From Thermoplasmata archaeon (lineage in GTDB: Archaea; Thermoplasmatota; Thermoplasmata; Lutacidiplasmatales; UBA184), in the NCBI GenBank assembly GCA_022750115.1, contig JAKIWI010000001.1, positions 147,490 to 211,489 of the forward strand: a DNA stretch of 64,000 bases, read 5' to 3'. Of this stretch, positions 7,120 through 60,869 are shown piece by piece. Under the pieces are notes generated by a model, which had not been told where the DNA came from, did not search any database, and saw only the letters and a list, made by a program, of their open reading frames with translations. The translations under genes and the position numbers were made by a program. Position 1 is the stretch's first letter, and each line of letters starts with the position of its first letter.

Positions 7120-7135
7120 GGGTCGCTGAGTCGAT

Positions 7136-7143: not shown

Positions 7144-7165
7144 GGCCGTCGTGCCTGACGCCGTC

Positions 7166-8298: not shown

Positions 8299-8322
8299 CG
8301 CATGGCCTCACGGCCAGGGGGC

Positions 8323-8787
8323 ATGTCCGCAGCGATCGACCTACCACGGCGCCCCCGCGGTCGCCGATTTTGGCTGGTCCTCGGGTCCGTCGTCGCCGCG
8401 ATCTCCGTGGTCGGCGTCGTTGCGATCCTCGCCGAATTCGAAGTGCCACCCTTCTGCTCGATCCCGGGCGGGTCCTCCGGACGCGAGTGCGTGAACGGTG
8501 TCCACTACCAGTTCGAGACCGTGCAGGTCCCAATCGGACCCCATTCTTCCGTCGTGGATGTGTTCGCGGGCGACACATTCACGCTATCGGACTTCTCGAA
8601 CAACGCCTCGTACGGCCTGCTCGTCAACATGAGTGACACGGCGGGACCACATGGTACCGTCGAGCTCGTCTCGTGCTGTCTGAGCGGCGTCGGCGCTTGG
8701 CAGACGGCTCTCGGTCCCGGCGGGACGTTCGGCGCGCAAGCGCCGGGGGAGAACCTCGGCCAGGTCCGACTGATGGTCCGCGCGTAA
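8323..8787 (+). CDS. Small anchored extracytoplasmic protein, unknown family
   Basis: A 154-residue protein: a short basic cytoplasmic segment (about residues 8-16), one transmembrane helix (about 17-38), then a roughly 115-residue outer domain with four cysteines (CSI, REC and an adjacent pair, SCCL) that could form disulfides. No family recognised. ATG 8323 is preferred on promoter spacing; in-frame ATG 8302 and GTG 8248 are possible longer starts. It follows the similarly organised 7166 gene after 164 bp in which I see nothing but the promoter. Confidence 0.65.
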   Translation: MSAAIDLPRRPRGRRFWLVLGSVVAAISVVGVVAILAEFEVPPFCSIPGGSSGRECVNGVHYQFETVQVPIGPHSSVVDVFAGDTFTLSDFSNNASYGLLVNMSDTAGPHGTVELVSCCLSGVGAWQTALGPGGTFGAQAPGENLGQVRLMVRA

Positions 8788-8817
8788 GTCCTACGGCGCG
8801 GGCGAGCTCGCACCCGG

Positions 8818-9798: not shown

Positions 9799-9839
9799 GC
9801 GCGATCGAGCCGCCCGGCGCTCAAAACGAGCGCCCCGGC

Positions 9840-10067
9840 TCACTCGTCCGCCGACTCCATCCGGAAGTAGACGGCTTTCCCCTTCAGCGTCGCCTGGACC
9901 CGGTCCGCGAGGTCGAGCGATTCGCGGACGCTCGGCTCGCGGCCCCAGTCGTAGACGAAGTCGTAGCCGCCGTCGTGCGGGCGGAACCCCGCGTCCTCGA
10001 GGAGCTCGGCGACCTCGGAGTACGGGGCGCCCTCGCTATCGAGCTGGAGGAGGAGGAACGTCCGCAT
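9840..10067 (-). CDS. Small YDFVYDW-motif protein (copy 1), unknown function
   Basis: A 75-residue acidic protein with a predicted alternation of strands and helices: SEGAPYSEVAELL helix, GF turn, then GGYDFVYDWG near residues 33-42, then a helix and a final strand. It is clearly homologous to the 73-residue protein at 50971-51192: both share SEGA..SEVA..L, YDFVYDW, PS and LDLAD at the same positions. Function unknown. The family looks archaeal and cytoplasmic; no metal-binding or catalytic set is evident. TTTAAA 27.5 bp upstream supports this ATG as a leaderless start. The stop lies 41 bases before the preferred kae1 start, so independent of kae1 or co-transcribed with it. Confidence 0.85.
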   Translation of the reverse strand: MRTFLLLQLDSEGAPYSEVAELLEDAGFRPHDGGYDFVYDWGREPSVRESLDLADRVQATLKGKAVYFRMESADE

Positions 10068-10091
10068 CGGCGTCGCAACCGGTCGCCGGGG

Positions 10092-10097
10092 TTTAAA
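10092..10097 (-). promoter_or_regulatory. TATA box of the first YDFVYDW gene
   Basis: TTTAAA centred 27.5 bp upstream of the ATG at 10067; it overlaps the last codon and stop of tgtA. Confidence 0.65.
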
Positions 10098-12027
10098 GGG
10101 TCGCGGCGGGCGACGGCGCTTCGTCCTCGACCTCGGGTGCCCGTTCGCCTCGCTCGTGGGCGGTGACCTCAACGGCCACGCCCCGCGGCATCCGTCCCAT
10201 CTCGCCGGGGGCGAGCACGAGCCGGCCGACGGCGAGGAGGACATCGGACTCGTCGACGAGGAGTGCGCTCGCCCCGGGCACCAGGGTCCGGTCGCCGCCG
10301 GAGACGAACCGCGAGAACAGGCTGCGGCCCTCGCGGACGAACGGCACGGCGTCCGGCGCGACGACGATCCGGTTCGCGGGCGCGGGCAGGTGGGCCCGGA
10401 GGGCGCGGCCGCCCTCGAACGTCGGACGAACGATCCCCTCCGACCCGAGGTGGAACAGGATCGTTCCGTCCCGCTCGATGCGGCGCAATCGCCCCGTGCG
10501 ATGCGACCGGAATCCCACGACGCCGACGGCGAGGAGGGCGGAGGCAAGGTCGGGGCCGTATCGCCAGGCGAGCAGCGCCTCGACCTGCCGCCGCGTCCAC
10601 GCCTCCGACCAGTCCTGCTCGCGGTCGACGGGGAGCCCTTCGAGCGCGCTCGCGAGGTCGCCGGTGCGCGGAGGCGGGTCGAACTCCTCGGGCGCCAGGT
10701 AACAGCCGACCGGGTAGACGTCGGACAGCTCGAGCGGCACGAGGCCCACCGGCCGAAGGATCTCCCAGAACAGAGGCACCCCATCGATCGTCGCGGCCGG
10801 GATGGAACGGAGGGCCGCCGTCGTGAGGGGGACGAACGGGATCGGTTTGTACGGGCCACGCCCGGACTTGAACACGTCCAGCCGGGCGAGGAATCGGATG
10901 ACCGCCGGTCGGAGGCCGCTCGTGACCACGGTCGTTCGGAACGCGCGTCGGCTCTCCGGTTCCGTCGGCAGGAACACCCGCACCCCGCGGATCGCGGCCC
11001 GCATCCCCGCGGCGAGAGCGGGATGACCGGTCGATCGTCGTTCGGCGAGCTCCCACATCGTTCCGTCGCGGATCGCCTGGCGGATCCGCCCGACCTCCTC
11101 CGAGCAGACGAGGAGGTTGTGCTCGGCGATCCGGGTCTCCCGCTCCGGGGGAGGAAGGTCACGAACCTCGGTGAGCGGGACGTGCTCGCACAGCGCGCAG
11201 CGGCAGATGTTCTCCTGGATCCCGTCGATGGAGACGCTCCCTTCCGGAAACATCAGCGTCCCGCGCCGCGCGAACTTGAGGTAGGCCGAAGAGTCGAACA
11301 GGTCGACGCCGAACAGCGCCGCGAAGGCGAAGGTCATCGGGTGTCCCGTCCCGAAGAGGTGGACGACGCCCTCGGGAGCGAGGGCGGGGCGCGCGGCGAT
11401 CAGCACCCGGGCGAGGTCGGCGAACCGGTAACGCTCCATGAGCGGGACGACGCCGCCGACCGCGAGCACGTCCCCCGTGCTCGATGCGGCCGCCGCGGAC
11501 TGCCGTCGGAGATCGGGGTCGAGGCCGCCCTGCACCGGCACGGCGAGGAGCCCGGCCCGGCCGGCCCGCGCCTGGGTCGCTCGCCGACTGGTCTCCCGGA
11601 CGCCGGCCTCCGCGACGTCGCGAGGCGCGTCCGGCTCGACGAACACGTCGAGGACCGTGGCGATGTCAGTTCCGATCCGTCCCTGAAAGGCGAGGATCTG
11701 GCTGTCGGTGACCTCGACGTGGCCGTACGCGTGCTGCTGGAACGCGCCGGAGTCGGTCATCACGGGCCCGTCGAACCCGAGCAGCCCGTGGACCCCCCGC
11801 TCCTCGGCGATCGCGGCGAGCGGCGGCGTTCGCCAGATGATGTAGGACGAGGTGATCACGGCCTTCAGTCCGAATCGCCGGCGCAGCTCGGTCGGCGCCA
11901 CCGGCTGGCGGGCGGGGTCCGGATGGACCACCGGGAGCAACGCCGGGGTCTCGATCACACCGTGGGGAGTCGGGAATCGGCCGATTCGCGCGAGCCCGTC
12001 CCGCGCGAGGAGCTCGAATCCCCCCAT
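10093..12027 (-). CDS. tgtA: tRNA-guanine(15) transglycosylase (archaeosine synthesis)
   Basis: Replaces guanine-15 of archaeal tRNA with preQ0, the first committed step to archaeosine. 644 residues: catalytic TIM barrel (about 1-340), linker domains, and a C-terminal PUA RNA-binding domain (about 545-625). Nucleophile Asp92 is in VMTDSGAFQ; the zinc site is C275, C277, C280 in ICRCALC plus H303. The length is that of the archaeal full-length enzyme, so it is not a split TGT. ATG 12027 has CTTAAT 28 bp upstream. The adjacent kae1 is also a tRNA-modification gene. Confidence 0.95.
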   Translation of the reverse strand: MGGFELLARDGLARIGRFPTPHGVIETPALLPVVHPDPARQPVAPTELRRRFGLKAVITSSYIIWRTPPLAAIAEERGVHGLLGFDGPVMTDSGAFQQHAYGHVEVTDSQILAFQGRIGTDIATVLDVFVEPDAPRDVAEAGVRETSRRATQARAGRAGLLAVPVQGGLDPDLRRQSAAAASSTGDVLAVGGVVPLMERYRFADLARVLIAARPALAPEGVVHLFGTGHPMTFAFAALFGVDLFDSSAYLKFARRGTLMFPEGSVSIDGIQENICRCALCEHVPLTEVRDLPPPERETRIAEHNLLVCSEEVGRIRQAIRDGTMWELAERRSTGHPALAAGMRAAIRGVRVFLPTEPESRRAFRTTVVTSGLRPAVIRFLARLDVFKSGRGPYKPIPFVPLTTAALRSIPAATIDGVPLFWEILRPVGLVPLELSDVYPVGCYLAPEEFDPPPRTGDLASALEGLPVDREQDWSEAWTRRQVEALLAWRYGPDLASALLAVGVVGFRSHRTGRLRRIERDGTILFHLGSEGIVRPTFEGGRALRAHLPAPANRIVVAPDAVPFVREGRSLFSRFVSGGDRTLVPGASALLVDESDVLLAVGRLVLAPGEMGRMPRGVAVEVTAHERGERAPEVEDEAPSPAATL

Positions 12028-34892: not shown

Positions 34893-35078
34893 GTTCGCCC
34901 CGCGGCATGCGGGGGGGATTCGGACTCCGGAGTTTCGGCGGAACGATCGGGCGAGGGGGCCGACGCAGTTCCTTGCCCCGCTCGGGAGCGAGGTGCACTG
35001 GGGGAGCGTAACGTGTTCCGCGGTTCCACCGGAACCGGGTCGCTGTCGGTCGAGCCGCCGGCTGGTTCCGCAGGAGAG

Positions 35079-35101
35079 GCGGGCGCGGTGGGATTTGAAC
35101 C
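35079..35101 (-). repeat. tRNA-Arg 3'-end direct repeat (copy inside the intact tRNA)
   Basis: The intact-tRNA copy of the 23-base repeat; differs from 32537-32559 at one acceptor-stem position. The two copies enclose about 2.5 kb. Confidence 0.6.
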
Positions 35102-35155
35102 CACGTCAACCGGATTAGGAATCCGGGGCACTGGTCCGTGCTGTGCGACGCGCCC
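35080..35155 (-). tRNA. tRNA-Arg (anticodon CCT)
   Basis: A complete 76-nt cloverleaf on the minus strand: acceptor GGGCGCG pairs with CGCGCCC plus discriminator G; D stem GCAC/GTGC; anticodon stem CCGGA/TCCGG enclosing loop TTCCTAA (anticodon CCT, reading AGG); variable TTGAC; T arm GTGGG-TTCAAAT-CCCAC. No intron, and CCA is not encoded. The flanks 34893-35079 and 35156-35365 show no genes. Confidence 0.96.
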
Positions 35156-48016: not shown

Positions 48017-49038
48017 TCGAGGCGTGGGTCGAGCTCAGCCGGGAGAATCTCCCGCTCGCGCGTTGGGAGCTGCGTTCGGCCGTCGAAGCCCTGGGGGGAG
48101 AGGCCCGCGGAACGGACGACGACCCGAACATGCCGCTGGCGCGCCTCGTGCACGCCGAGGATGCTCGCGTGCTCGCGGGACGGCTGGCCCTCGCCCGGCG
48201 GATCATCCTCCGATGGCCCGAGGAGGACACGGCAGCGATCCGGGCCCGCCTGAGCCGGGAGCTCCGCCCGGGCGAATCGGTGGCCTTCCGACCCCTCGCC
48301 CGAGCGCGGGGTCGTGCGTCGGGCGAACCCCTCGCGGCCTGGGCGGAAGCGGTCCAAGGGGCCGGCGGTCGAGTCGACCTCGACGGGCCGGACCGGCGCT
48401 TCGCGTTCGAGTCGGCGGGAGACGGGCGATTCCGGTTCGGCGAGCAGGTGGCGGAGGTCGACCGCTCGGTCCTGGCCCAACGCCGCATGCCGAGGCTCCC
48501 GTTCCGCCGACCGGTGAGCCTCCCGCCCAAGCTGGGCCGGGTGGCCGTGAACCTCGCGCGCGTCCGGCCGGGCGACCGGGTCGTCGACCCGTTCCTGGGG
48601 ACGGGGGCACTCGCCGTCGAGTCGGCGCTGTTGGGAGCGCGGGTGACGGGGCTCGACACCGACGCGACGATGGTGCGCGGCGCGCTCGCGAACTTCGCGC
48701 ACCTCGCGCTCGAGCCGGAGTCGGTGGTGGTCGCGGATTCCGGGTCCGTCGTCCCGGTCGGTCGGTTCGATGCCCTCGTCACCGACCCGCCGTATGGTCG
48801 CGCGTCGACGACCGGCGGCGAGGTCGCCGGGGAGCTGGTCGAACGCGTGGTCCGCCACTGGGCCGAAGCGGTCCGAGCCGACGGCCGACTGGTCGTTGTG
48901 ATGCCGGGCGGGCCGGACCCCGTGGCCGCTCCGTGGCGGCGACTGGCGTCGATCCCGGACCGGGTCCACCGCTCGTTGACGCGGGAGTTCCGCGTGTACG
49001 AACGGGACCTGAGCGGGTCGGGCGCTACTGCATCATGA
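48013..49038 (+). CDS. tRNA (guanine10-N2)-methyltransferase, Trm-G10 type
   Basis: A 341-residue protein with an N-terminal THUMP-like region (about 1-150) and a class I methyltransferase domain: DPFLGTGALAVESALLG (SAM motif), LDTDATM and the catalytic DPPYG of N2-guanine methylases. This matches the archaeal Trm-G10 enzyme that makes m2G/m2,2G at position 10 of tRNA. The GTG overlaps the Mut7-C stop. The end overlaps the convergent protease gene by 14 bases. Confidence 0.92.
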   Translation: MIEAWVELSRENLPLARWELRSAVEALGGEARGTDDDPNMPLARLVHAEDARVLAGRLALARRIILRWPEEDTAAIRARLSRELRPGESVAFRPLARARGRASGEPLAAWAEAVQGAGGRVDLDGPDRRFAFESAGDGRFRFGEQVAEVDRSVLAQRRMPRLPFRRPVSLPPKLGRVAVNLARVRPGDRVVDPFLGTGALAVESALLGARVTGLDTDATMVRGALANFAHLALEPESVVVADSGSVVPVGRFDALVTDPPYGRASTTGGEVAGELVERVVRHWAEAVRADGRLVVVMPGGPDPVAAPWRRLASIPDRVHRSLTREFRVYERDLSGSGATAS

Positions 49039-50584
49039 CGGAGAGCGAGGCGGTCGACGACGCCGCGCCCGGGCAGAGTTCCACGACCGTGAGCGTCGCC
49101 ACCACGGACGCCTGCTGGGTGTTCTGGTAGAACACCGAGAACGCGGCCGAATCGCTCGCGTTCACCTGTGAGTACTCGGCGGGCGCGACCTCGAAGGACC
49201 CGTTGTGGCCGAACACCGTGACGTTGTGGTTGGGCAACGTCACCTGCCAAGTCGAGTTCGCCAAGAACGCCGCCAGCGCGGCGCCTTGCAAGGGTCCAGT
49301 GACCCCATTCACGGTCGTGGTCACGCTCTGGATGTCGCCGCGGAGGATGTAGCCGTGCGCCACGAGGTCGTGGTTCGCGACGGTGACGGTCGTGTTGTCC
49401 GCCATGCCGGCCATCGTCGGCGCGGCGAGCGTCGGACCTCCGGAGACCCCGAACGCCCCGGTGGGCGTCGCGATCGGGATCACGACGAACCCCGTCACGA
49501 GGACCGCGACCGCGAGCGCCCCGAGTACGTACCGCTTCCGGTCGAGGGGCGTGATGTCGTTGAGCGGGGGCGGATGGCGGAGCCCCAGCAGGACGATCAG
49601 GATCGCGAACAGGAGCCAGCCCGGGTAGAAGATCCCGAGGATCACCAGGAGTCCCACCGCCCCGTAGCTGACCCAGCGGGTCCGTTCGCCGAACAGGGCC
49701 CGGAACACGTGCCCCCCGTCCAACTGCCCGGCGGGAAGGAGGTTGATCGCGGTGACGAGAAGGCCCACCCACCCCGCCAGAGCGAGGGGGTGGAGGCTGA
49801 CGAAGCTCACCGGGACGAATTGCGTCAGGAAGAACCAGAAGACCGAGGTCCCGACGATGAGGTTCCCATAGCCGACCCCGAAGAACGTCGGGCCGCAGTT
49901 CGCGACGGAGAGCACCGGGGCGTGGGCGCTCAGGAACATGCCCGCGATCGTGACGGGCACGGCGACCGCGAACCCCGCGAGCGGTCCCGACGCCCCGATG
50001 TCGAGCAGCGCCTTCTTCGACGGGATCGGTTCGCGCAGACTGATGAACGCCCCGAAGGTCCCGAACAGGAGGAACGGCGGGGGGACTGGGATGAAGAACG
50101 GCAGCGACGCCTCCACGTGGTGGTGGCGGGCCATGACGAAGTGGGCGAGCTCGTGGACGCCGAGGGTCGCGAGCAGCGGGAACCCGAAGTAGAGCGCGCC
50201 GTAGCCGATCGCGCCGAGCGTCAGGGTCGCACCCCCGACGTAGGCGACCCAAAGGAACCCACCCGCCAGGACCGTCGTGAGGATCGTGACCGCCAGCAGG
50301 ACGACGTTCGCGACGGAGCTCCACGGTGCTCGCCGCGGCCGTCGGATCACCTCGATGACGTACTCGCCACCCTCGCGCCGGATCTGCGGGACGTAGAACC
50401 GGTCCCAGAACTCCCGACGGAGGCGGTCGAACTTGTCCTCGAGGGTCGCCGGGTCGACCTGGACCAGGAGGACGAGGGAAACCGCGGTGATGCGGGTCTC
50501 GTAGACCGGGAAGTAGAGCGCGACGGTCGCCCGGATCCGCTCGAGCTCCGTGCTCGCCGGCGCGGACGACCCGAGCGGACCCAT
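49025..50584 (-). CDS. Site-2-protease-like membrane metalloprotease (M50)
   Basis: A 519-residue intramembrane protease candidate. A cytoplasmic N-terminal domain (about 1-85) precedes seven or so hydrophobic helices; HELAH at 144-148 and the third-ligand motif LLPAGQLDGGH near 262-272 are both intact. After the last helix a roughly 140-residue C-terminal domain with N-glycosylation sequons faces outward. S2P-family proteins cleave membrane-bound regulators; the substrate here is unknown. ATG start, 7 bp after the DUF5611-like gene. Confidence 0.92.
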   Translation of the reverse strand: MGPLGSSAPASTELERIRATVALYFPVYETRITAVSLVLLVQVDPATLEDKFDRLRREFWDRFYVPQIRREGGEYVIEVIRRPRRAPWSSVANVVLLAVTILTTVLAGGFLWVAYVGGATLTLGAIGYGALYFGFPLLATLGVHELAHFVMARHHHVEASLPFFIPVPPPFLLFGTFGAFISLREPIPSKKALLDIGASGPLAGFAVAVPVTIAGMFLSAHAPVLSVANCGPTFFGVGYGNLIVGTSVFWFFLTQFVPVSFVSLHPLALAGWVGLLVTAINLLPAGQLDGGHVFRALFGERTRWVSYGAVGLLVILGIFYPGWLLFAILIVLLGLRHPPPLNDITPLDRKRYVLGALAVAVLVTGFVVIPIATPTGAFGVSGGPTLAAPTMAGMADNTTVTVANHDLVAHGYILRGDIQSVTTTVNGVTGPLQGAALAAFLANSTWQVTLPNHNVTVFGHNGSFEVAPAEYSQVNASDSAAFSVFYQNTQQASVVATLTVVELCPGAASSTASLSVMMQ

Positions 50585-50591
50585 CCGAGGG

Positions 50592-50903
50592 TCACTCCCC
50601 GGTCGACTTTCGGAGACGTTTCGCGCGTTCCTTCGAGTTGAAGCCGGTCGCGTCCTCGAGGAAGTCGTTGTAGCGACGGATCGTCTCGCGAGCGACCGCT
50701 TCGTCGACCTTCGGGTTCATCCGGAGCTCGATGCCGAGCTCCTTCCCTTCGACCCGCGCGCTCAGCCGCTCGATCGCGCCCCAGTGGGCGACGACGAACT
50801 CCCCCTCCTGAGCGACCCCGTCGAAATGTCGGCGGCAGATCTCCGAAAGGGGGGTCGGCTGGAGGTTCGCCCGGTGATTCGCGCGCACCGGATACTTCTG
50901 CAT
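50592..50903 (-). CDS. Small conserved archaeal protein (DUF5611-like)
   Basis: A 103-residue soluble protein resembling the archaeal DUF5611 family: YPVRANHRANLQP at the start, a central LGIELRMNPKVDEAVARETIRRYNDFLE segment and a GFNSKERAKRLRK end. The function of the family is not known to me. It starts a short operon with the S2P-like protease and has TTAAGATA 26.5 bp upstream. Confidence 0.8.
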   Translation of the reverse strand: MQKYPVRANHRANLQPTPLSEICRRHFDGVAQEGEFVVAHWGAIERLSARVEGKELGIELRMNPKVDEAVARETIRRYNDFLEDATGFNSKERAKRLRKSTGE

Positions 50904-50925
50904 CCGGCCGTCCGAGCGAGGGGCG

Positions 50926-50933
50926 TATCTTAA
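50926..50933 (-). promoter_or_regulatory. TATA-like element of the DUF5611-like gene
   Basis: Minus-strand TTAAGATA centred 26.5 bp before the ATG at 50903. Confidence 0.6.
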
Positions 50934-50970
50934 CGATTTGCGCCTTCGCGCGGGCCACCCACGGCCGTCG

Positions 50971-51192
50971 TCAGACGGACTCGATCTCGACGAGGACGCG
51001 GTAGCCCTTCAGAAGGTTGGTCATCTCGTCGGCCAGGTCGAGGATCTGATCGCGCGAGGGCGTCGCGCGCCAGTCGTAGACGAAGTCGTAGTTCCCCTGG
51101 GTCGGCACGAACCCAAACTCGCGCAGCCGGTCCGCCACTTCCGACGGCTTCGCCCCCTCGCTGTGGAAGGTGACGCGGAGGTACGTCTCCAT
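50971..51192 (-). CDS. Small YDFVYDW-motif protein (copy 2), unknown function
   Basis: A 73-residue paralogue of the protein at 9840-10067. Shared at equal positions: a hydrophobic first strand, SEGA..SEVA..L, GF, GNYDFVYDW (GGYDFVYDW in copy 1), PS, LDLAD, LLKG and a final strand ending in ES. Both have their own promoter and stand alone, pointing to two dedicated jobs or a heteromer. CGTTATCG 27.5 bp upstream supports the ATG at 51192. Confidence 0.85.
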   Translation of the reverse strand: METYLRVTFHSEGAKPSEVADRLREFGFVPTQGNYDFVYDWRATPSRDQILDLADEMTNLLKGYRVLVEIESV

Positions 51193-51212
51193 CGAGGGGG
51201 CACCGGGCGGTC

Positions 51213-52004
51213 CTACGATAACGTTTCGCGCGCGAGGGCTCGCCGACGGCGTGTCAGAGCGCCCCGCACGAACGCGCCGACGGCCCCCGGTCGGCGCCGC
51301 AGGACGGCCGACCGCACCATGCCCTCGGGTGTCGAGAGTTCCGCTTGCCATCGGTTCTCGCCTCGGGTGCGGAGCTCGAGGCGGTAATCCCAGCGGCGCG
51401 TGGGACGCGCGGAACTGAGGGGCCGAGCGGGAAGGAGACGAACGCTCCTCCCGGGGATCGACTCCTCGAACGCCCGCTTGACTTCGCTGGCGGCGGCGGG
51501 ACCACCGCCGACCACCTCCAAAACGCTCGCTCCGCGAACGCGACCGTTCTGGGTCAACTCGCCCACTCGGATCCGGCTCGAGGAAACGGGCCGAAGGTCG
51601 GGGGCGAGGGTCATTGGTACCGCGATGACCCGCGCCGCCGCCAGCCCCGTGCGACGTCGTCGGACGTTGACGGCCCGGGCCCCCGGCTCCGTCGCCGTCG
51701 AGACCACGATGGCGTCGACCCCGGGCTCGACCGAGCGTCCGAACGCGTCGTCCAGAGCTACGATCTCGAACGCTCGGCCCGGGTAGGCGGACCGGAGATA
51801 GCGGACGAGCGCGCGGCGGCGCCCGACGTACGAGCGGATCCGGTCCCCCCCCGGTTTCGGGTGGGCTGCCAGGTAGGCCGCCGACGTCAGGCCGATCCGG
51901 ACGGTGTCGGCGACGTCGAACGCCGCGGCCAGGAGCGCGCGGTGGCCGGCGTGCAGGCGGTCGAAGGTGCCCCCGAGAACGGCCACCGTCGGACGGCGCG
52001 CCAC
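51213..52004 (-). CDS. coaD: Phosphopantetheine adenylyltransferase with C-terminal extension
   Basis: A 263-residue protein. Residues 1-155 are the archaeal PPAT nucleotidyltransferase domain: VAVLGGTFDRLHAGH with the HxGH motif, KPGGDRIRSY and SSSRIRVGEL (ISSTxIR-like). It makes dephospho-CoA. Archaeal PPAT is usually about 150-170 residues; here about 100 more follow (VGGGPAAASEVKRAF onward), an Arg-rich alpha/beta region. Some archaea fuse PPAT to an NTP phosphatase (DUF84), and this tail could be a shortened relative, but the similarity is weak. Starts 10 bp after the zinc-ribbon gene. Confidence 0.88.
   Translation of the reverse strand: MARRPTVAVLGGTFDRLHAGHRALLAAAFDVADTVRIGLTSAAYLAAHPKPGGDRIRSYVGRRRALVRYLRSAYPGRAFEIVALDDAFGRSVEPGVDAIVVSTATEPGARAVNVRRRRTGLAAARVIAVPMTLAPDLRPVSSSRIRVGELTQNGRVRGASVLEVVGGGPAAASEVKRAFEESIPGRSVRLLPARPLSSARPTRRWDYRLELRTRGENRWQAELSTPEGMVRSAVLRRRPGAVGAFVRGALTRRRRALARETLS
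51216..51223 (-). promoter_or_regulatory. TATA-like element of the second YDFVYDW gene
   Basis: Minus-strand CGTTATCG centred 27.5 bp before the ATG at 51192; it lies over the end of the coaD gene. Confidence 0.5.
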
Positions 52005-52269: not shown

Positions 52270-53439
52270 CTACGCTCGGAACATCCGCCCGAGCGCCAGC
52301 TCGGAGGCGTCCGGAAGGGCGGCGCGGAACGCCGACGGGTGGGCCGTCGCGTGCGGGCGAGAGGTCTCGGGTCCCGCGGTGCGGTGGCCGATCGGGGCGA
52401 CCTCGCGGCCGATGCCGGCGATGTCCCGGGCGTCGAGCGAGAGCGGCGTCGCCTCGCGCCAGACCGACTCGAACCGAAGCGCGTTCTGGCGCACGAACTC
52501 CTCATCCTCGGACGCGACGAGCGGGCCGCCCCCGGGACGGGGGAACGACATGGCGCCAAAGCCGCGGACCGCGAACTTCCGGTCGATGACCCAGAGCCGG
52601 CCGAGCTGCGGCGTCCAGATCCGGATGTCGGGCCGGGTGCCCGTGTGACCGAGGGCCGGGAGCAGGCGGGCGAGGAACTCGAGGTCGGTCGTCCGGTAGT
52701 CCAACACGAGCTGGACCCGCACACCCCGCTCCGCAGCGCGCGCGACGGCGCGGGCCAGCTCGACCCGGGCGGTGTCGGGGAGCACCCCGGGGCGGGTGAG
52801 GGCGATGATCTCCTGCCGAGCGCCGGCGATCCGGTGCATCAGTTCGGCGGCGAACTCCTCGTCCTTCGGGATCAGGTGGGCCTTCGCGGTGGCGATCGGC
52901 CGCGGGATGGAGGCGCGCAGAGCGGGGTCGCCGTCGTCCCCGGTGCCGGGGCGTGGCGGGGACTCCGCAAGGTAGAGAGATCGAACGACACGGTGGAGGT
53001 CGACCTCGTCCCGCAGGAACACGGTGGCTCGGTCGAGCAGGCGGCCGACGTCCAGGGCGACGAAGCGGTGAGGTCGGCGACCGGTGGGCACCACGAGCCC
53101 GCGGGCCGCGAGGCGCGCGAGGATCCGGTAGCCGGTCGCGCGGTCGAGCTGGGAGGCCAGGATCGCGTGGCGGGCGGTGACGGGCCCGCTCCGAACGACC
53201 GCGCGGTACATCTGCGCCTCGTGGACCGTGAGCCCGAGGTGCGTGAGCCCCCGGGTCAGCTCGTCGGCGTTCTCCGATCCCTCGGACGACGCGTCCAACG
53301 AAGCGACGGGCGGGGAGGAGGGACGGTCCGGTCCGCCACCCGGAGCGGCCTCAGACGGGCGCGACGTCGCGCCGCCATATCCGGCGTTGTGACGCGCTTG
53401 ACTCATGGGTTTCTCGCCCGCCCAGGCCGTTCGAGACAT
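52270..53439 (-). CDS. TrmB-type regulator with PLD-like sensor domain
   Basis: A roughly 389-residue protein: a disordered Gly/Pro-rich start, a TrmB winged helix (about residues 65-130: LTHLGLTVHEAQMYRAVVRSG, ASQLDRATGYRILARLAARGLV), a short coil, and a C-terminal phospholipase-D-like alpha/beta domain (about 185-325) as in sugar-sensing TrmB regulators; the catalytic HKD motif is not present. It lies directly downstream of the vWA-GTPase operon but has its own strong TATA box. ATG 53439 fits a leader of about 25 bases with GGGGAGG; ATG 53406 is an alternative. It may regulate the operon. Confidence 0.85.
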   Translation of the reverse strand: MSRTAWAGEKPMSQARHNAGYGGATSRPSEAAPGGGPDRPSSPPVASLDASSEGSENADELTRGLTHLGLTVHEAQMYRAVVRSGPVTARHAILASQLDRATGYRILARLAARGLVVPTGRRPHRFVALDVGRLLDRATVFLRDEVDLHRVVRSLYLAESPPRPGTGDDGDPALRASIPRPIATAKAHLIPKDEEFAAELMHRIAGARQEIIALTRPGVLPDTARVELARAVARAAERGVRVQLVLDYRTTDLEFLARLLPALGHTGTRPDIRIWTPQLGRLWVIDRKFAVRGFGAMSFPRPGGGPLVASEDEEFVRQNALRFESVWREATPLSLDARDIAGIGREVAPIGHRTAGPETSRPHATAHPSAFRAALPDASELALGRMFRA

Positions 53440-53487
53440 TCCTACCGGTCTCCTCCCCGTTCCGGTGTGAGAATGGGTACGCATGCG

Positions 53488-53540: not shown

Positions 53541-56500
53541 TCAGCGCCGGCGCGTGGGGCGACGACGGTCCGCCGGCGGGTCGACGTCGTCGAGCGGGTC
53601 CGGTCCGAGCGACGGCGGCGGGCTCGACGCCGCGGCGAGGCCGCGACTCGCGGCGCGCCGGGGCGGCGGGTCCAACCCCGCGAACGGGTCCGGCTCGTTC
53701 GCACCCTCTGACCAGCTCGCGCCGCTGGTGGGCTCCGACTTCGACCGCTCGATCGCGCGACGGTCGTCGGTGAGCTGGCTCAGCTGACGGACGAGAGTGA
53801 GCCAGACGCGGCCCTGGTTCGCGATGGACGTTTCCATGCGGTCGCGAATCTCCGCGGTCTTCTCCGAGAGCTCGGCCTCGAGCCGTCGGACCTCGCGGTG
53901 GAGGTCGCGGCGCATCTGTTGCACCTCGGCGTCCGACGGGGGCGCGGCGGCGCCGGAGGTCTTCTGCATCTCGGCGATCTTCAACCAGGCCTTGCGGACG
54001 ACCGGAACGAGCCGGTCGGAGAGGACCTGGGTGCGGTGGTCGAGCTCGTCGAGCTCCCCTCGGATGCGCGTCTCGAGTTTCTCCAGAAGCGACTCGCGCT
54101 CCGCGAGCACTTGCTCGACCTGTTCGAGGCGACGGAGCCCGTCCTGCGGAACATCGGAGAGCTTCGCCTCGGCCTCGCCGACGCGGGCGTCGACCATCCG
54201 CTGCGTTTCGAGCCGGAACGCGTCGATGGTGCGCGCCATCCGCTCCCGGATGATCGGGTCGAGCTTCGCGGGGTCGCTCGCCCGCGAGAACGTCCCCTCG
54301 ACCTCGGCCTTGAGGCGGGCGAGGAGCTCGAGGTACTTCTCGCGCTCCCGGTCGAGGCCCTCCCGCAGACGCTCGTCGAAATGACCCTGCATGCGGACCT
54401 GGAGGTCCGCGATCGCCTGGAGGTTCGACGCCTGCACCTCGCTGGTGCGCGCGTCGAGCTTCCGCGAGAGGCTCGCCTCGGCGGCCCGGACCCGCTCGTC
54501 GACGGTGCCGCCGAGGCGGCCGAGCTGGTCGGTCGCGCCCTTCTGGAGGCGGTCGGAGAGCTCGCGCGTCCGGCCGTCTACGAGGATCGTGAGCTTCTGG
54601 TCCGAGTCCTTCTGGTCGCGGAGGCGCTTCGCCTCGATCTCGTCGAGGCGCTTTTGGATCGACTCGCGGAGCCGGCCTTCGAGCTCTTCGCGGACCGAGA
54701 TCTCCCGGTCCGCCGCTTCGCGGAGGTGGAGGTCGAGCTGCGCCGAGAGGTTGCCGCGGAGCTCCTCTTCCGCGGCCGCGATCCGCTGGCGGAGCTCGGC
54801 GTTCGTGCGGTCGGCTTCGTCGGCGACCTTCTGGCGGTGCGCTTCGACGACGCCGCGCTGGTCGTCGCGGAGCTTCGCGACCGCTTCGACGACGCGGGCG
54901 TCGAGCGACGACTCGAGGCGCTGGTCGATCTCCGGGCCGATGGCCGTGGCGACGGCCGCCTGGAGCCGGACCTCCCCCGCTTCGAGGCGGCGGTCGAGCT
55001 CGAGCCGGAACGTCTCGACCGAGGTCTGTTGAGCTGCTTGAGCTTCCGATAGACGCTTCTCCAGTCCGAGGCGAAAGGTGTCGTCCGATTCCCCCTTCCG
55101 GCCGGCCGCCTCCGACCAGTGCGTGGTCAGCCTCTGCTCGAGGTCGGCCGTCGCTCGACGGACCTCCTCGGCGATCTGGGCGCGCGATTGGCCCACGCGC
55201 TCCTGGATCATTCGTTCGATCTCGGGCGTCGTGGGTCCGGTGTTGATCACGACGGGGGGCGGGGGCGGAGGGGGCGCGGCGGGCGGGGGGCTCGCCGCGG
55301 GTGGCTCGGAAGTGGGAGGGGAACTGGTCGCGGACGGTGCTGCGCCCGGCGCGGCTCGGGCCGGGGGGCTCGCCGACGGTGGGGAGCGGCCGAGGCTCCC
55401 GGGCGTCGGGTAGGGAGGGGGCGCGGTGGCGCTGGGATGCAAGGTCGGGTCGTCGCTGACGGAGACCGGGACGAGCTCGCTCCGCTCGGTGGGTGGCGAT
55501 GGGGGTGGGTCGCCGGGCCGGTTGAGCCACGGCGGAAGCTGTCGACCCGGCGCGACGGGTTCGGCGGTCACCCCGACCGGGCCGACGACGGCGTCCTCGA
55601 CCGGGGCTTCGCCGACGGAGGACGGGGGACGCGCTTGCAGGTACTCCTGGGCCCGCTTCGCGGTCTCCGCGGTGACCGGGACATGTCGGCCACGGGCGCG
55701 TTGGAGGAGCAGCGCGGCGCTCTCCATCGCGGTGCCGATCCGCCAGATCTCCTTGCGGCGGTCCCGTCCGCCCTGGCGCTCGGGGTCGGCGAGATGGGCG
55801 CGCAGCCGCGCGCTCTCCGCGAGGTCGACCCGCTGGCGGATCGGGACGAGCTTCGCCTCCTGGCGGTCGCGGATGAACTGGACGATGAGCGGTGTGTTCT
55901 CCTTCGATTTGCTGGTGGCCGCCGGGATCCCGTCGGTGAGGTCGCGGACCGTCATCGACGCTCCCTCCCAGTTCTGGATCCGCTTCGCGTGCCGGTCGCC
56001 GGCGGCCTCGCCGCGAGCGACGCGCATCAGGGCGAGGGTGAGCGGGATCTGCTCGGTGAGCTCGTGGAGGTTCGTCTTCGGCTGGGGGAGGAAGTAGGGG
56101 AACGCGAGGACTGCGCCGAGCGCGGTGAGCGGGGCGGGGAGGACCCGGACGAGGTCGAGGATCGCCTGCATCGCCATCTCCCACTGGTCGGAGGCGACGA
56201 GGAGGACCGGGTCGGTCGAGCCGCGGTGGAACAGGAATCCCTCGGCGACGATGCCGTAGAGGGCCGGGTCGGGCGTCGGCGGGGGGCGGCTCCCTTCGCG
56301 CCGCGGCCCGCCCATCGAGGCGTGCCATCGCAGGACGGTCGCGCCGAACTCGCCGGTCGCGAGGAGCTGCTGGGTGTCGAGGACGAGGGTCTTCATGCCG
56401 AGGCGCGGGCGGTCCTCGGTGGAGAGGAACATCCGGCCGATGCACGTGTAGCGGCCGTTCGCGGCCGGGTAGAGGAACAGGTTCGGGTAGTAGGAGAGCG

Positions 56501-56747
56501 GCTGGGACGGGTCCGGGTCCCAGTAGTCGTGCGTGTCGGCGACGTTGACCGTCAGGTTGCCGACGATCCGGATCGTCTCGAGCGTCTCGCGATGGCCGGG
56601 GAACTCCTCGGGGACGGTCGTGTAGCCGGGGCTTTCGGCCTCGTTGTCGACCTGCCGGCACCAGACGACGCCGACCGGGGACGTCTGGCTCGCGGCGCGG
56701 CGCTCGGCGGCGTCGGCGGTCGTGCCGGACGCCGCCGGGGTAGCCAT
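53541..56747 (-). CDS. 1068-residue GTPase-associated coiled-coil protein
   Basis: Third gene of the vWA-GTPase operon; its ATG overlaps the GTPase stop by one base (TGATG). Residues about 1-395 form a globular domain opening VVWCRQVDNEAESPGYTTV and rich in aromatic strands; about 395-500 are Pro/Ser/Ala-rich; about 505-990 are an almost unbroken coiled coil with heptads such as ERLREGLDREREKYLELL; the last 75 residues are disordered and end in an Arg-rich tail. No membrane segment. The N-domain resembles, by eye, the N-domain of large proteins that accompany double-GTPases in bacterial conflict systems (GAP1-like), but I cannot confirm this. The long coil suggests a filament, tether or membrane-remodelling scaffold. 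Confidence 0.85.
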   Translation of the reverse strand: MATPAASGTTADAAERRAASQTSPVGVVWCRQVDNEAESPGYTTVPEEFPGHRETLETIRIVGNLTVNVADTHDYWDPDPSQPLSYYPNLFLYPAANGRYTCIGRMFLSTEDRPRLGMKTLVLDTQQLLATGEFGATVLRWHASMGGPRREGSRPPPTPDPALYGIVAEGFLFHRGSTDPVLLVASDQWEMAMQAILDLVRVLPAPLTALGAVLAFPYFLPQPKTNLHELTEQIPLTLALMRVARGEAAGDRHAKRIQNWEGASMTVRDLTDGIPAATSKSKENTPLIVQFIRDRQEAKLVPIRQRVDLAESARLRAHLADPERQGGRDRRKEIWRIGTAMESAALLLQRARGRHVPVTAETAKRAQEYLQARPPSSVGEAPVEDAVVGPVGVTAEPVAPGRQLPPWLNRPGDPPPSPPTERSELVPVSVSDDPTLHPSATAPPPYPTPGSLGRSPPSASPPARAAPGAAPSATSSPPTSEPPAASPPPAAPPPPPPPVVINTGPTTPEIERMIQERVGQSRAQIAEEVRRATADLEQRLTTHWSEAAGRKGESDDTFRLGLEKRLSEAQAAQQTSVETFRLELDRRLEAGEVRLQAAVATAIGPEIDQRLESSLDARVVEAVAKLRDDQRGVVEAHRQKVADEADRTNAELRQRIAAAEEELRGNLSAQLDLHLREAADREISVREELEGRLRESIQKRLDEIEAKRLRDQKDSDQKLTILVDGRTRELSDRLQKGATDQLGRLGGTVDERVRAAEASLSRKLDARTSEVQASNLQAIADLQVRMQGHFDERLREGLDREREKYLELLARLKAEVEGTFSRASDPAKLDPIIRERMARTIDAFRLETQRMVDARVGEAEAKLSDVPQDGLRRLEQVEQVLAERESLLEKLETRIRGELDELDHRTQVLSDRLVPVVRKAWLKIAEMQKTSGAAAPPSDAEVQQMRRDLHREVRRLEAELSEKTAEIRDRMETSIANQGRVWLTLVRQLSQLTDDRRAIERSKSEPTSGASWSEGANEPDPFAGLDPPPRRAASRGLAAASSPPPSLGPDPLDDVDPPADRRRPTRRR

Positions 56748-57964
56748 CAGTCGCCCCGGGTGGCGCGCCGCTCCAGGACGCGCTCGCAGATGCGGGCGAG
56801 CGGGAGCGTCGTGTTGACCATCACCGGGATGCCGAGGGTGTCCGGCCCGGCGCTCGGGGCCTCGACCCCGGTCTCGTTGAGGAACAGCGGGTGGCCCTCC
56901 CCCGCGGAGACGGCGCTTGAGACGAGGAATACGTCCTCCCGCGCCGAAATGCCGCGGCCGTCGTGGGCGACGAGGATCGTGCCCATACCGGCACCGTCGC
57001 GGCGCAGCAGGAAGTCGGGGATGTCGAACATCGACCGGTAGGAACGCTCGCGGACCGCCTGCTCGATCTCCGAGTAGAAGTCCCGGAGCTTGTCGGCCTT
57101 CGAGATCGCGATGACCAGCGGGATGTTGTGCTGCTTCACGTAGCGGAAGACGCCGCGCGCCAGGTTCACCTGCTGGGCCTGGTCGCGGAGCGACGGCAAG
57201 GACGGGGACAGGAGCAGGATGATCCCCTCCGCCTTGTGGACGAACCGCCCGAGGAGCGTGAGGCCCCGGCGCCACAGGTCGCGGCGGTCCGGTCGCCAGG
57301 TGTCGAAGTGGGGAATCACCCGGCAGGAGCGGTCCGTGACCTCCTCCTCGACCGAGTTGATCCAGAGCCGGTCGTAGGTGAAGTAGTCCGAGATGATCCC
57401 ACCGGCCTCGTCGATGGTGTGGAGCTCCATGGGCCGGGAGAGCTCCGCCCCGCCGCTCGGGCTCCCGTAGCGGAAGTGCATCTTCATCTCGACGAACTGA
57501 TTGTATTTCGTCGGGAGCGGGTACTTCGTGAGGACCCCCTGCTCCTCGCGCCCGGCGGCGAGCTCGACCCAGAGCTTCTTTCGATCGTCCATGGGCCGGT
57601 TCACGTAGTACCGGGTCGTCGTCTCGAGGCTCCCCTCGGGATCTGTCGGGTCGGTGGTCTCGTACGTCGTCTCCTCGAGCACGACCTCGCTCGCGAGGTC
57701 GCCGTAGAGGGGGATCGTCGAGCCCTCGGGGCGCGACGGGAGGTAGAGGATCGGGAGGTTGAGCCCGAAGTGGCCCGAGAGAAACCGGAAGTACGTGGTC
57801 TTGCCGGACGCCGGGATGCCCACGACCGCGATCCGGGCCGCCTCGACCGGCGGCGCCTTCGGCTCCTTCGCGACCTTGGTCGGGCGCTCCACCTTCTCGG
57901 GCTTCGCGTCCTTCTTCGGCGCGGACTTCGTCTTCGGCTTCGTCGTTCCCTTGGACTCCGGCAA
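56747..57964 (-). CDS. P-loop GTPase-like protein of a vWA-linked system
   Basis: A 405-residue protein. A 40-residue Lys/Pro/Ala-rich tail precedes the P loop GIPASGKTTYF (residues 49-59); DEAGG at 185-189 fits the switch II / Walker B position, SKAD at 288-291 fits the guanine-specificity NKxD motif, and VSSAVS near 347 fits the G5 motif. An insert of over 100 residues lies between the P loop and DEAGG. It looks like the double-GTPase type found with vWA proteins. The start is TTG, with AGGAG about 10 bases upstream. The stop of the vWA gene is 17 bases upstream. Confidence 0.87.
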   Translation of the reverse strand: MPESKGTTKPKTKSAPKKDAKPEKVERPTKVAKEPKAPPVEAARIAVVGIPASGKTTYFRFLSGHFGLNLPILYLPSRPEGSTIPLYGDLASEVVLEETTYETTDPTDPEGSLETTTRYYVNRPMDDRKKLWVELAAGREEQGVLTKYPLPTKYNQFVEMKMHFRYGSPSGGAELSRPMELHTIDEAGGIISDYFTYDRLWINSVEEEVTDRSCRVIPHFDTWRPDRRDLWRRGLTLLGRFVHKAEGIILLLSPSLPSLRDQAQQVNLARGVFRYVKQHNIPLVIAISKADKLRDFYSEIEQAVRERSYRSMFDIPDFLLRRDGAGMGTILVAHDGRGISAREDVFLVSSAVSAGEGHPLFLNETGVEAPSAGPDTLGIPVMVNTTLPLARICERVLERRATRGD

Positions 57965-57981
57965 CTGTGTTACTCTCCTGG

Positions 57982-59490
57982 TTAACGCATCTCAGCGAGA
58001 CAGATCTCGATGAAGTCGAGCGCCCCCTCGACGGCGGCGTCGCCCCCGGCGTTCTCGAGCCGGGTGTCCTGCAACAGGCCGAAGATCTCCTCGACGGCGG
58101 ACTCGTGGCCGCGCGCGGCGTCGGCCGGGTCCTCGCCCCCGGTGGCCCGGGTGAGCTGGTAGGTCCCGCGCAGCTCCATGAGGCGCGCGAACAGGTCGCT
58201 GAGCATCTGCTTCAGCTTCGGGTCGGCGCGCGCGAGCTTCGTCTCCGTGTCATCGAGGAAGCGAACCAGCGTCTCCGTCTCCTGGTCGTTCTGCATCTTC
58301 GCCTGCAGGAGCGCGAGGCGGCGAGTGATCCGTGCCCGGTGGCTGAGCGGGATCTGGTCCGCGGCGTTCCAGGCCTGGAGGAGCGAGCGCGCGGCCTCGA
58401 CTATCTCGCCGCGGGCGAAGTAGATGCGGGCCTCCCAGTAGGAGAACGTGACGGGAGGAAGTACGGCTTTCGAGCGGTGGAGCTGCTCGAGCGCCCCGCC
58501 GAAGTCGTTCTGCAGGTAGCTCTCGATGACGCTCCCCAGGGGACCGTAGCGCTCGCGCAGGTACGGCGGGGCGACGCCCGACTGGGCGTTCACGACATCG
58601 ACCTCGAGGGCCGGGGCCTCGGAGTATGGCGCGTCGGCCTCCGTCAGAGCCTCTTGCGCAGGCCGGGTGAGGCGCGCGACGGTCGCATGCTGCTGGGGCT
58701 CTTTCAACGCTCGAGCGGCCCGGCCGGCGTTGCGAGCGAGTTCTTCGGGGTGGAGCTGGTCGAGGGTACGGCCGTCCTCGAAGTCGACGTCGAGGAAGGC
58801 GTTGACCATCTGGGCGAACAGCTGGGCGCCGGTGTCGACCTCCTGGTAGGTGAACAGGGCCGGCGCGCCGATCGCCTGGGCGCGCGCGGTCAGGGCGGTG
58901 AGGAAGGCGTTCATCTTGCCGGAGTCGACGCCCTTGTCGCGTTGGTTTCCCATGCCGATGCCGATGACCCGGAGCGTGAGCGTGGAACCTTCCGGGAGCA
59001 GGTAGGGGACGAGCTCGACCCGGGTACCGGCCGTGGTCGGGCGGGTCGGGTCGCGCACCTCGAATCGCGTCGAGGCGTTGTCCCAACCGTCGGTGACGAG
59101 CACGAGCGTGCCGTGGACGCCCGACGCGCCGCGGCGGAGCATGTCGGCGCCGACGCCGAGGGCGTCCCAGATCGCCGAGCGGCCGCTCGGCGTCAGCATG
59201 GAGATCAGGCTCTCGACGTACGGGAGGTTCTCCTTGTGAATGACCCCGAGCGGGACCGCCACGCGGACGCTCTCGGTGAAGGTGACGAGGCCAAACTCGC
59301 TGGCCGTAGTCTCGGCGTTCTCGAGGATCCGGTAGACCGCGGTCCGGGCGACCTCGATCTTCTGCTTCTCGGACCCGGAGGGATCCGGGAGCGGCGCGAG
59401 CATCGACTTGGAGAGGTCCAGGACGAGGACGTTGCGCTCCCTCGGGATCGTAGCCGACGGCGCGGCGGTCCCGTACTCTACCTCGGTCAA
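57982..59490 (-). CDS. von Willebrand factor A domain protein
   Basis: A 502-residue cytoplasmic protein; first gene of a three-gene operon. The vWA domain occupies about residues 18-225, with a complete MIDAS: DLSKS (D25, S27, S29), a Thr near 101 and the VTDGWD aspartate near 137. The C-terminal 250 residues are helical and TPR-like (EARIYFARGEIVEAARSLLQAWNAA). Such proteins act as Mg-dependent scaffolds for P-loop NTPases. The start is TTG 59490, preceded by GGAG; no in-frame ATG lies before the MIDAS. A TATA-like TGAATAAGAG near 59582-59591 would give a leader of about 70 bases. Confidence 0.9.
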   Translation of the reverse strand: MTEVEYGTAAPSATIPRERNVLVLDLSKSMLAPLPDPSGSEKQKIEVARTAVYRILENAETTASEFGLVTFTESVRVAVPLGVIHKENLPYVESLISMLTPSGRSAIWDALGVGADMLRRGASGVHGTLVLVTDGWDNASTRFEVRDPTRPTTAGTRVELVPYLLPEGSTLTLRVIGIGMGNQRDKGVDSGKMNAFLTALTARAQAIGAPALFTYQEVDTGAQLFAQMVNAFLDVDFEDGRTLDQLHPEELARNAGRAARALKEPQQHATVARLTRPAQEALTEADAPYSEAPALEVDVVNAQSGVAPPYLRERYGPLGSVIESYLQNDFGGALEQLHRSKAVLPPVTFSYWEARIYFARGEIVEAARSLLQAWNAADQIPLSHRARITRRLALLQAKMQNDQETETLVRFLDDTETKLARADPKLKQMLSDLFARLMELRGTYQLTRATGGEDPADAARGHESAVEEIFGLLQDTRLENAGGDAAVEGALDFIEICLAEMR

Positions 59491-59833: not shown

Positions 59834-60517
59834 ATGTCGGGAGCCGGCGCGCGCGCATCGAACACGCTCCCCCGTCGCCATTGGGACTCCGTCTACCGCA
59901 CGCGCGCGGAGGACGAGCTCAGCTGGCACCAGGACGAGCCGAAGTTGTCGCTCCGGTGGGTCGAGGCGCTGGCGGCGAAGTCCGACCGAATCATCGACGT
60001 CGGGGGCGGTTCGTCGCTTCTCGCGAGCCGCTTGGGCGCGGCGGGATATCGGCGTCTCCTGGTACTCGACGTCGCGTCCCACGCGATCGAGCGAAGCAAA
60101 GCGAGGTCGCCCTCGGGAGGGAAGGGAATCCGCTTCCGCGTCGGGGACGTCACGTCCCTCCCGAGCCTCGGCCGATTCGATCTCTGGCACGACCGAGCGG
60201 TCTTCCACTTCCTTACCGATTCCCGGGACCGACACCACTACGTCGACTTGGCGGCGCGGACGGTCCCCGTCGGTGGGCATCTGATCCTCGCGACGTTCTC
60301 CAACGATGGGCCTGCACGGTGCAGCGGTCTGCCGGTCGCCCGGTACGACGCCACCGCGCTGGCGCACGTATTCCGACCCCGGTTTCAACTCTCGAAGTCG
60401 ACCACCGAGTCGCATCGGACGCCCTGGGGAACTGTCCAAAAGTTCACGTACGTCGTACTCTCGCGGGTTCGGGGCGGACGGGCGAGCCCCGATCGGGACC
60501 CGCCCGCGGGCCGTTGA
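59834..60517 (+). CDS. Class I SAM-dependent methyltransferase
   Basis: A 227-residue methyltransferase: WDSVYRTRAEDELSWHQDEP at the start, motif I IIDVGGGSSLLASRLGAAG (about 53-71), acidic LDVASHAIERSKAR and the DLWHDRAVFHFL motif. This pattern is common in small-molecule or thiol methyltransferases of the UbiE/thiopurine-like group; substrate unknown. GGGAG lies about 10 bases before the ATG. It is divergent from the vWA operon and could be an accessory gene, but nothing ties it functionally. Confidence 0.82.
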   Translation: MSGAGARASNTLPRRHWDSVYRTRAEDELSWHQDEPKLSLRWVEALAAKSDRIIDVGGGSSLLASRLGAAGYRRLLVLDVASHAIERSKARSPSGGKGIRFRVGDVTSLPSLGRFDLWHDRAVFHFLTDSRDRHHYVDLAARTVPVGGHLILATFSNDGPARCSGLPVARYDATALAHVFRPRFQLSKSTTESHRTPWGTVQKFTYVVLSRVRGGRASPDRDPPAGR

Positions 60518-60619: not shown

Positions 60620-60644
60620 CGGGGGCCCGGGTCGGCGGCGCCGC

Positions 60645-60869
60645 ATGGGCAACATTCGCCAAACGTACATCAAGCGGGTCGCCGTCGAACTCGTCCGTCA
60701 CTACCCCGAATCGTTCACGGGCGACTTCGCGGCGAACAAAGTGCAGGTGCTGCGGCTCACCGACCTCACGGTGATGGTCGACGGCAAGCCCACCCTGGTG
60801 TACAAGAAGCTCGCGAACCGGATCGCGGGCTACGCGACCCGCTACGTCAAGCGAAAGCGCGGCACGTAG
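60645..60869 (+). CDS. rps17e: Ribosomal protein S17e
   Basis: A 74-residue archaeal/eukaryotic-type small-subunit protein. MGNIRQTYIKRVAVELVRHY, FTGDFAANKVQV and KKLANRIAGYATRYVKRK match S17e throughout, although a roughly 10-residue insert (LTVMVDGKPTLVY) lengthens the middle loop compared with the usual 60-65 residues. Leaderless start with a TATA box at 28.5 bp. Convergent with the aIF6 operon, 24 bp away. Confidence 0.92.
   Translation: MGNIRQTYIKRVAVELVRHYPESFTGDFAANKVQVLRLTDLTVMVDGKPTLVYKKLANRIAGYATRYVKRKRGT

Follow-up and report, generated by a model that had tools for sequence, protein, structure and literature searches.

A vWA, GTPase and rod gene trio of Thermoplasmata archaea: possibly an unstudied scaffold inside the cell rather than a known type of immune system

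The window analysed in this study is a stretch of 64,000 nucleotides from a Thermoplasmata archaeon of the order Lutacidiplasmatales (assembly GCA_022750115.1, 2.1 Mb in 27 contigs; contig JAKIWI010000001.1, positions 147,490 to 211,489). It harbors three neighbouring genes, all of them open reading frames (ORFs) on the minus strand, which encode a protein with a von Willebrand factor A (vWA) domain, a P-loop GTPase-like protein and a large protein consisting of an N-terminal domain (N-domain), a Pro-rich linker, a rod, a C-terminal module (C-module) and a tail (Table 1). The tight order reported in a preliminary description of this DNA was found at the given positions, with a gap of 17 bp between the vWA and GTPase genes (57965–57981) and an overlap of one base between the GTPase gene and the large gene (TGATG at 56747). 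The three genes are shown here to be one evolutionary unit under purifying selection, which is inherited vertically with loss of the whole block and is not a mobile island. The trio may be a cytoplasmic scaffold that is switched by GTP, passed on vertically and dispensable, a reading to which a probability of about 0.45 is assigned. No published description of an archaeal vWA–GTPase–rod unit was found in the open-licence literature, and the terms ‘GTPase’, ‘von Willebrand’ and ‘coiled’ are absent from the main text of PMC9287336, a paper on Lutacidiplasmatales.

Related loci were collected by a pattern-based scan of genome contigs, which detects close relatives only; 76 were confirmed. According to their titles, 73 are from a Thermoplasmata archaeon and one each from Lutacidiplasma, a ‘bacterium’ and a ‘Euryarchaeota’. 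The nearest named relative found is ‘Candidatus Lutacidiplasma silvani’ (L052; L and G numbers denote loci and genomes), the GTPase of which is 91% identical, so that the family probably falls within Lutacidiplasmatales. A comparison of gene neighbourhoods, proposed in the preliminary description as a check, revealed that the trio is conserved as a unit in related genomes. Of the 76 loci, 74 have the vWA gene upstream of the GTPase gene, 69 have the large gene downstream of it and 67 show all three. The misses lie at contig ends: less than 400 bp of contig remain in the seven loci without the large gene, and no neighbour is missing where more than 400 bp remain. The GTPase was detected in 59 of 71 family genomes of at least 80% completeness (30 of the 36 high-quality ones) and in all seven genera of one Thermoplasmata family. 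Profile searches against 292 genomes of the phylum returned the same 12 family genomes for the GTPase and the N-domain, plus one 29-residue P-loop stretch (GTPase) and one match with an expectation value (E) of 0.07 (N-domain) elsewhere. Among 61 relatives, the pattern of the vWA protein nearly equals that of the GTPase (26 and 27 genomes, respectively). Homologues share 60–95% amino acid sequence identity for the GTPase, 41–89% for the vWA protein and 39–90% for the N-domain, and the ratio of nonsynonymous to synonymous substitution rates (dN/dS), calculated against one close relative (L053), is 0.074 for the GTPase, 0.108 for the vWA protein and 0.254 for the large protein. Given these identities and ratios, the trio does not consist of chance ORFs.

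The usual gene order at the locus is S19e, PDCD5, L39e, L31e, eIF6, S17e, the trio and a CoaD-like gene. Among loci with enough contig left to show the flank in question, 38 of 45 have S17e near the trio and 41 of 46 have the CoaD-like gene there. All nine readable trio-less loci with both flanks (L140–L148) lack all three trio genes at the junction; here, the CoaD-like gene follows on S17e at a distance of 304 to 426 bp between the aligned parts. These nine account for most of the 12 family genomes without a GTPase match. In G384, the vWA gene is cut at a contig end (L149), in G019 S17e lies at the contig edge (L150), leaving the junction unreadable, yet the genome was labelled as absent in the five-marker tree, and G010 had no eIF6 match. 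In this tree, genomes without the trio fall into two clades, one of seven and one of three members (support 100 each), and since a node with a support of 89 keeps them apart, one or two losses inside the genus of the window are indicated. The distances in the GTPase tree and the marker tree are correlated for 23 trio genomes (r = 0.889; maximum 0.659 in 999 permutations); genomes whose GTPase match did not exceed 300 residues were excluded from this comparison. It is the empty junction together with the agreement of both trees that establishes vertical inheritance with block loss. In four loci of sister families (three order-level genomes and one class-level genome), S19e-PDCD5-L39e-L31e-eIF6 is retained, while the fetched stretches showed no S17e, CoaD-like gene or trio. 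A broken set is present in one genome (L151; G361:C19, about 5660–10640), which was labelled as present: the GTPase matches in four separate short pieces and the best match of the large protein starts at residue 224. This might reflect decay or an assembly error.

For the analysis of the proteins, alignments were sampled from the 76 loci (24 sequences each for the GTPase and the N-domain, 20 for the vWA protein). The middle protein carries G1, G3 (DxxG), G4 ([NST]KxD) and G5 (SA) motifs in this order, as DEAGG for G3, SKAD for G4 and SSA for G5, which indicate a P-loop GTPase, as had been assumed from the letters alone. DEAGG and SKAD are invariant in the alignment, which extends down to about 61% identity. 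In G1, K55, T56 and T57 are invariant and the remainder is nearly so, some rows starting inside the motif. G1 and G3 are separated by about 130 conserved residues, including an invariant LTKYPLPTK stretch. Identity as an unrelated ATPase was rejected because the SKAD and SSA motifs of a GTPase are conserved. With Pfam, for which the HMMER filters discard weak matches of both GTPases and N-domains, the 24 GTPases gave matches below the cut-off only, mostly to P-loop or GTPase families around G1 and G4 (ATP_bind_1 in 23 sequences, AAA_18 in 22, GTP_EFTU in 21 and DO-GTPase2 in seven). Searches against the PDB returned weak or generic matches for the single GTPase sequence and nothing below E 0.37 for its profile.

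The vWA protein of the window matches VWA_2 (E 3.6e-10) and VWA (E 6.5e-8) of Pfam, both over the cut-off, and VWA_2 is present in all 20 relatives. The complete metal ion-dependent adhesion site (MIDAS) ascribed to it earlier is confirmed, D25, S27, S29, S105, T133 and D134 being invariant in all rows. In the C-terminal half, which is presumably helical, weak TPR-type Pfam matches occur in a few of the 20 relatives, the best of them being that of one relative to ANAPC3 (E 0.0014), while E500, M501 and R502 at the protein end are invariant. The single sequence gave weak or generic matches only in the PDB search.

The large protein is unevenly conserved in comparison to L053. Identity and dN/dS are 90% and 0.118 for the N-domain, 49% and 0.517 for the linker, 78% and 0.304 for the rod, 83% and 0.146 for the C-module and 47% and 0.506 for the tail, and the strongest selection in the trio is thus found for the GTPase, the vWA protein, the N-domain and the C-module. 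The linker has a Pro fraction of 0.25 to 0.38 in windows starting at residues 365 to 477, and the presumed coiled coil behind it is Pro-poor and charged. The rod (residues 505–820) shows a hydrophobic period of 3.73 residues on a binary scale (power 33.8; in 500 shuffles, the 99.8th percentile is 9.6), while the power at the heptad period of 3.5 is only 1.6. Autocorrelation is seen at lags 4, 11, 15, 22, 26 (z = 5.5) and 30 and not at lag 7 (z = −0.1). A heptad coiled coil was therefore rejected. Right-handed coils with repeats of 11 or 15 residues are found in the peripheral stalk of rotary ATPases, in tetrabrachion and in VASP, and the rod carries the signature expected of such coils, with a hydrophobic repeat near 3.67–3.75; it has no shown sequence relation to them and would be right-handed by prediction. 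Rods were hand-picked from 52 homologues for this analysis, 12 for autocorrelation and seven for the period. Five long ones peak at 3.72–3.74 on the binary scale, whereas the short ones (L106, L111) and the C-module are near 3.6; the z value at lag 26 is at least 3.4 in all 12, which are related and hence not independent sequences. The 52 homologues, all of which contain the anchor in the N-domain and are not truncated by a contig end on the 3' side, range from 544 to 1296 residues from the anchor. Of the 1068-residue protein with globular N-domain, Pro-rich linker and giant coiled coil in the preliminary description, the length, the N-domain and the linker thus stand, while the coil is not a heptad coil and the giant size is not conserved. 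L111, L113 and L115 (about 560 amino acids) retain the N-domain, linker and C-module with hardly any rod and form part of a natural series of rod lengths.

An AlphaFold2 model of the N-domain (mean predicted local distance difference test score, pLDDT, 75.2; predicted template modelling score, pTM, 0.79) shows strands and helices ordered as in the longin fold (PAS/longin-like), followed by an alpha/beta part and then by helices. A Foldseek search of the PDB ranked first one chain, 365 residues long, of the C9orf72:SMCR8:WDR41:ARF1 complex, a match which is not significant (E 6.2e-3, probability 0.30, template modelling score 0.18). The search does not name the chain, which we take to be a longin-DENN chain. 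Further matches include TagF and a Lokiarchaeal roadblock-longin protein, none of them significant, and among viral models nothing significant was found either (best E 0.034). The N-domain resembles longin/DENN regulators weakly, as far as the model goes. According to PMC3521125, these regulators consist of a longin part followed by a DENN and then a d-DENN part and serve as guanine nucleotide exchange factors of Rab GTPases. In the literature covered, the tripartite kind is met only in eukaryotes. The modelled N-domain has a similar order of PAS/longin-like, alpha/beta and all-helical parts and is encoded beside a GTPase; unlike the known modules, it has a non-significant structural match and no sequence match, and its partner GTPase has no Ras or Rab family hit. 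A more specific version, which we regard as improbable, is a non-Asgard GTPase-tether module, in which a longin-DENN-like regulator, a right-handed rod as tether of tunable length, a private GTPase and a metal-dependent vWA grip would form a convergent or ancient analogue of Rab, DENN and golgin proteins.

In the scaffold reading, the nucleotide state of the GTPase would set its binding to the N-domain, acting as its regulator or effector. Rod and C-module would oligomerise and set the reach in a tether-like manner, and the metal site of the vWA protein might grip a partner or cargo at one of its acidic residues, coupling the switch to whatever is scaffolded, for which membrane, nucleoid, ribosome or a large enzyme are candidates. 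A cytoplasmic location is suggested since no clear membrane segment is present in the large protein as judged by hydropathy, for which reason a surface adhesin was rejected as well. Several observations weigh against this reading. The N-domain has neither a significant fold match nor, with its profile, a PDB sequence match up to E 10, which leaves gene linkage and a weak hint as the grounds for its proposed binding to the GTPase. The AlphaFold2 model of the GTPase failed (pLDDT 39.7, pTM 0.39); a Foldseek search with this model, in which Era ranked second (E 0.13) and Rab5 and PH1320 appeared among MCM, RuvC and unrelated folds, was not used. On a hydropathy scale, the peak of residues 505–1000 as a whole is at 3.59 and does not reach the 99.8th percentile, and the rod of L054 lacks the 3.74 peak. 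Since the rod length is not conserved, reach may not matter. The most hydrophobic 19-residue window (1.74; residues 202–220, in the N-domain) is near the usual membrane cut-offs. Furthermore, of 20 splits 11 are common to the marker tree and the GTPase tree, and one strongly supported pair conflicts.

Kinship with bacterial conflict systems, described in the preliminary description as triplets of a double GTPase, a vWA protein and a large GTPase-associated protein, is not supported. PMC7159879 defines GTPase-centric systems by a DO-GTPase and GAP1 (GAP1-N, -M and -C), accompanied by GASH or FNIII partners and variable effectors. The triplet is not part of this definition; vWA proteins occur, but only in some GAP1-N2 neighbourhoods. 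The same paper places such systems in a few archaea and describes them as mobile. An archaeal version would therefore not be new by itself, although the lack of a description in the literature covered agrees with the supposed novelty of this one. Among the 24 GTPases, DO-GTPase2 matched below the cut-off (best E 0.017, at the P-loop in the row shown) and DO-GTPase1 gave no row. The DO-GTPase2 model PF19993 has a match with E 0.036 elsewhere in the genome of the window and not at the trio. No GAP1 family of Pfam was found for the large protein of the window up to E 1, nor for the 24 N-domains up to E 10; a search for GAP1-N1 was negative in 243 genomes of the phylum, but so was its control, so that this search shows nothing alone. 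Neither zinc ribbon nor GASH, FNIII or effector domain was matched in the three proteins of the trio, nor GASH, FNIII or effector domain in ten flanking ones, the other loci having been mapped with window genes only, which is blind to lineage-specific genes. By these tests, the trio belongs to ‘P-loop GTPase’ and ‘vWA’ only and matches no described family tested.

By analogy, the trio may nevertheless work like DO-GTPase/GAP1 systems in a broad sense, with a GTPase switching a large partner. In both, a P-loop GTPase gene is linked to a large multidomain partner, a vWA protein is encoded nearby, for the known systems in some GAP1-N2 neighbourhoods, and some subtypes are thought to form assemblies (PMC7159879), as proposed here for the scaffold. 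This general likeness is also the starting point for an anti-invader role, with the GTPase as threshold switch, the large protein as sensor or assembly platform and the rod or vWA protein deploying the response. The variability of rod and linker and the missing GTPase match in 12 of the 71 family genomes, nine of them with a shown empty junction, would fit. In contrast to the mobile systems, however, the trio is vertical and family-wide, at a fixed ribosomal-gene locus and with a congruent tree. PADLOC gave weak matches for the GTPase (PtuA in 6 of 24, best E 0.0052; mad8 in 3 of 24, best E 0.0041), none for the 24 N-domains and one in the rod of the window protein (PDC-S26, E 0.009). No relative of the GTPase or the N-domain was found on plasmids (tblastn, up to E 10), and among viral contigs the pattern-based GTPase scan yielded 22 pattern stretches, none of which was confirmed as a relative. 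As the unit is constant and vertical and has no effector or GAP1 domains detectable in the proteins searched, variable lineage-specific genes not having been searched systematically, a conflict role is unlikely.

A remodelling chaperone similar to MoxR-vWA pairs, with a GTPase replacing the AAA+ motor and loading a cofactor into, or assembling, one large enzyme, is about as doubtful. vWA proteins work with NTPases, MoxR-like ones, in this way (PMC7159879), and in the trio an NTPase and a MIDAS vWA protein are likewise encoded together. In NCBIfam, the vWA protein scores best with a cobaltochelatase subunit (E 6.1e-7), and weak TPR matches are present. The NCBIfam match, however, spans the generic vWA core and is far under the cut-off (28.3 bits compared to 779), SKAD and SSA motifs are present in the NTPase of the trio, and the conserved locus as mapped includes neither a client enzyme nor an AAA+ gene. 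Moreover, a chaperone of this kind would not need a long rod, which is an addition to such pairs.

A slightly poorer chance is given to a ribosome- or translation-associated factor. The neighbourhood from S19e to S17e, in which eIF6 and L31e lie on the strand of the trio, and the basic N-terminal tail of the GTPase might point to this function. The trio is, however, divergent from S17e, its nearest ribosomal gene, which is not near it in seven of the 45 loci, and the ribosomal genes remain in place where the trio is lost. Very improbable are three independent neighbours held together only by slow gene-order change: the flanking genes are conserved too, but the trio is lost as a block at an otherwise kept junction (9/9 loci) and stays together in L106, L107, L109 and L114, though neither S17e nor the CoaD-like gene was found nearby.

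Should the scaffold reading hold, an uncultured archaeal lineage of soil and acid sites would have a GTP-controlled internal assembly, built from families which, with the exception of the vWA domain, have no Pfam name of their own. The sister species lacking exactly the trio block offer a clean natural experiment. If the longin/DENN hint is true, the architecture of eukaryotic membrane-traffic GTPase regulators would be extended to a non-Asgard archaeon. The rod would represent a long, naturally occurring coil of a non-heptad and probably right-handed type.

Table 1. Features of the trio and its flanks, with positions in the window
Feature	Position	Strand	Remarks
vWA protein	57982..59490	-	502 aa, TTG start; Pfam vWA match residues 21-149
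MIDAS DxSxS, D25-S29	59404..59418	-	completed by S105 (59176-59178) and T133-D134 (59089-59094); invariant in 20 aligned rows
vWA protein C-terminal half, residues 245-502	57985..58758	-	weak TPR-like matches; conserved EMR end
P-loop GTPase-like protein	56747..57964	-	405 aa, TTG start; basic N-terminal tail; ~130 residues G1 to G3
G1/Walker A VGIPASGKTT, residues 48-57	57794..57823	-	24-row GTPase alignment
G3 DEAGG, residues 185-189	57398..57412	-	invariant, 24 rows
G4 SKAD, residues 288-291, guanine-type motif	57092..57103	-	invariant, 24 rows
G5-like SSA, residues 349-351	56912..56920	-	A351 invariant, S350 at least 90%, 24 rows
Large protein	53541..56747	-	1068 aa, ATG start
N-terminal globular domain, residues 24-372	55632..56678	-	AlphaFold2 model; identity and dN/dS vs L053
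Pro-rich linker, residues 373-504	55236..55631	-	Pro fraction; low identity to L053
Variable-length rod, residues 505-820	54288..55235	-	hydrophobic period 3.73
Conserved C-terminal helical module (predicted), residues 821-1005	53733..54287	-	period 3.61; similar stretch ends 560-aa homologues (sequences read by eye)
Ribosomal protein S17e flank	60630..60869	+	Pfam E 2.7e-8
CoaD-like nucleotidyltransferase flank	51213..52004	-	CTP_transf_like E 1.8e-6; CoaD is the label of this analysis

Two further genes next to the trio were rejected as a fourth member of the unit. The gene of an S-adenosylmethionine-dependent methyltransferase (59834–60517, plus strand; Methyltransf_11, E 2.9e-8) lies between S17e and the trio in the window and, as none of the 76 related loci has a match at E 1e-6, is probably a recent insertion. 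A gene for a TrmB-type regulator (52270–53484, minus strand; E 3.4e-11), directly downstream of the trio, is present in only five of the 76 loci. The region 49025–51204 (minus strand) encodes an M50-type peptidase, a DUF5611 protein and a 77-residue protein without clear family, which follow the CoaD-like gene in many related loci. The sole tRNA gene identified by ARAGORN within the window is a tRNA-Arg (cct) at 35078–35155 (minus strand).

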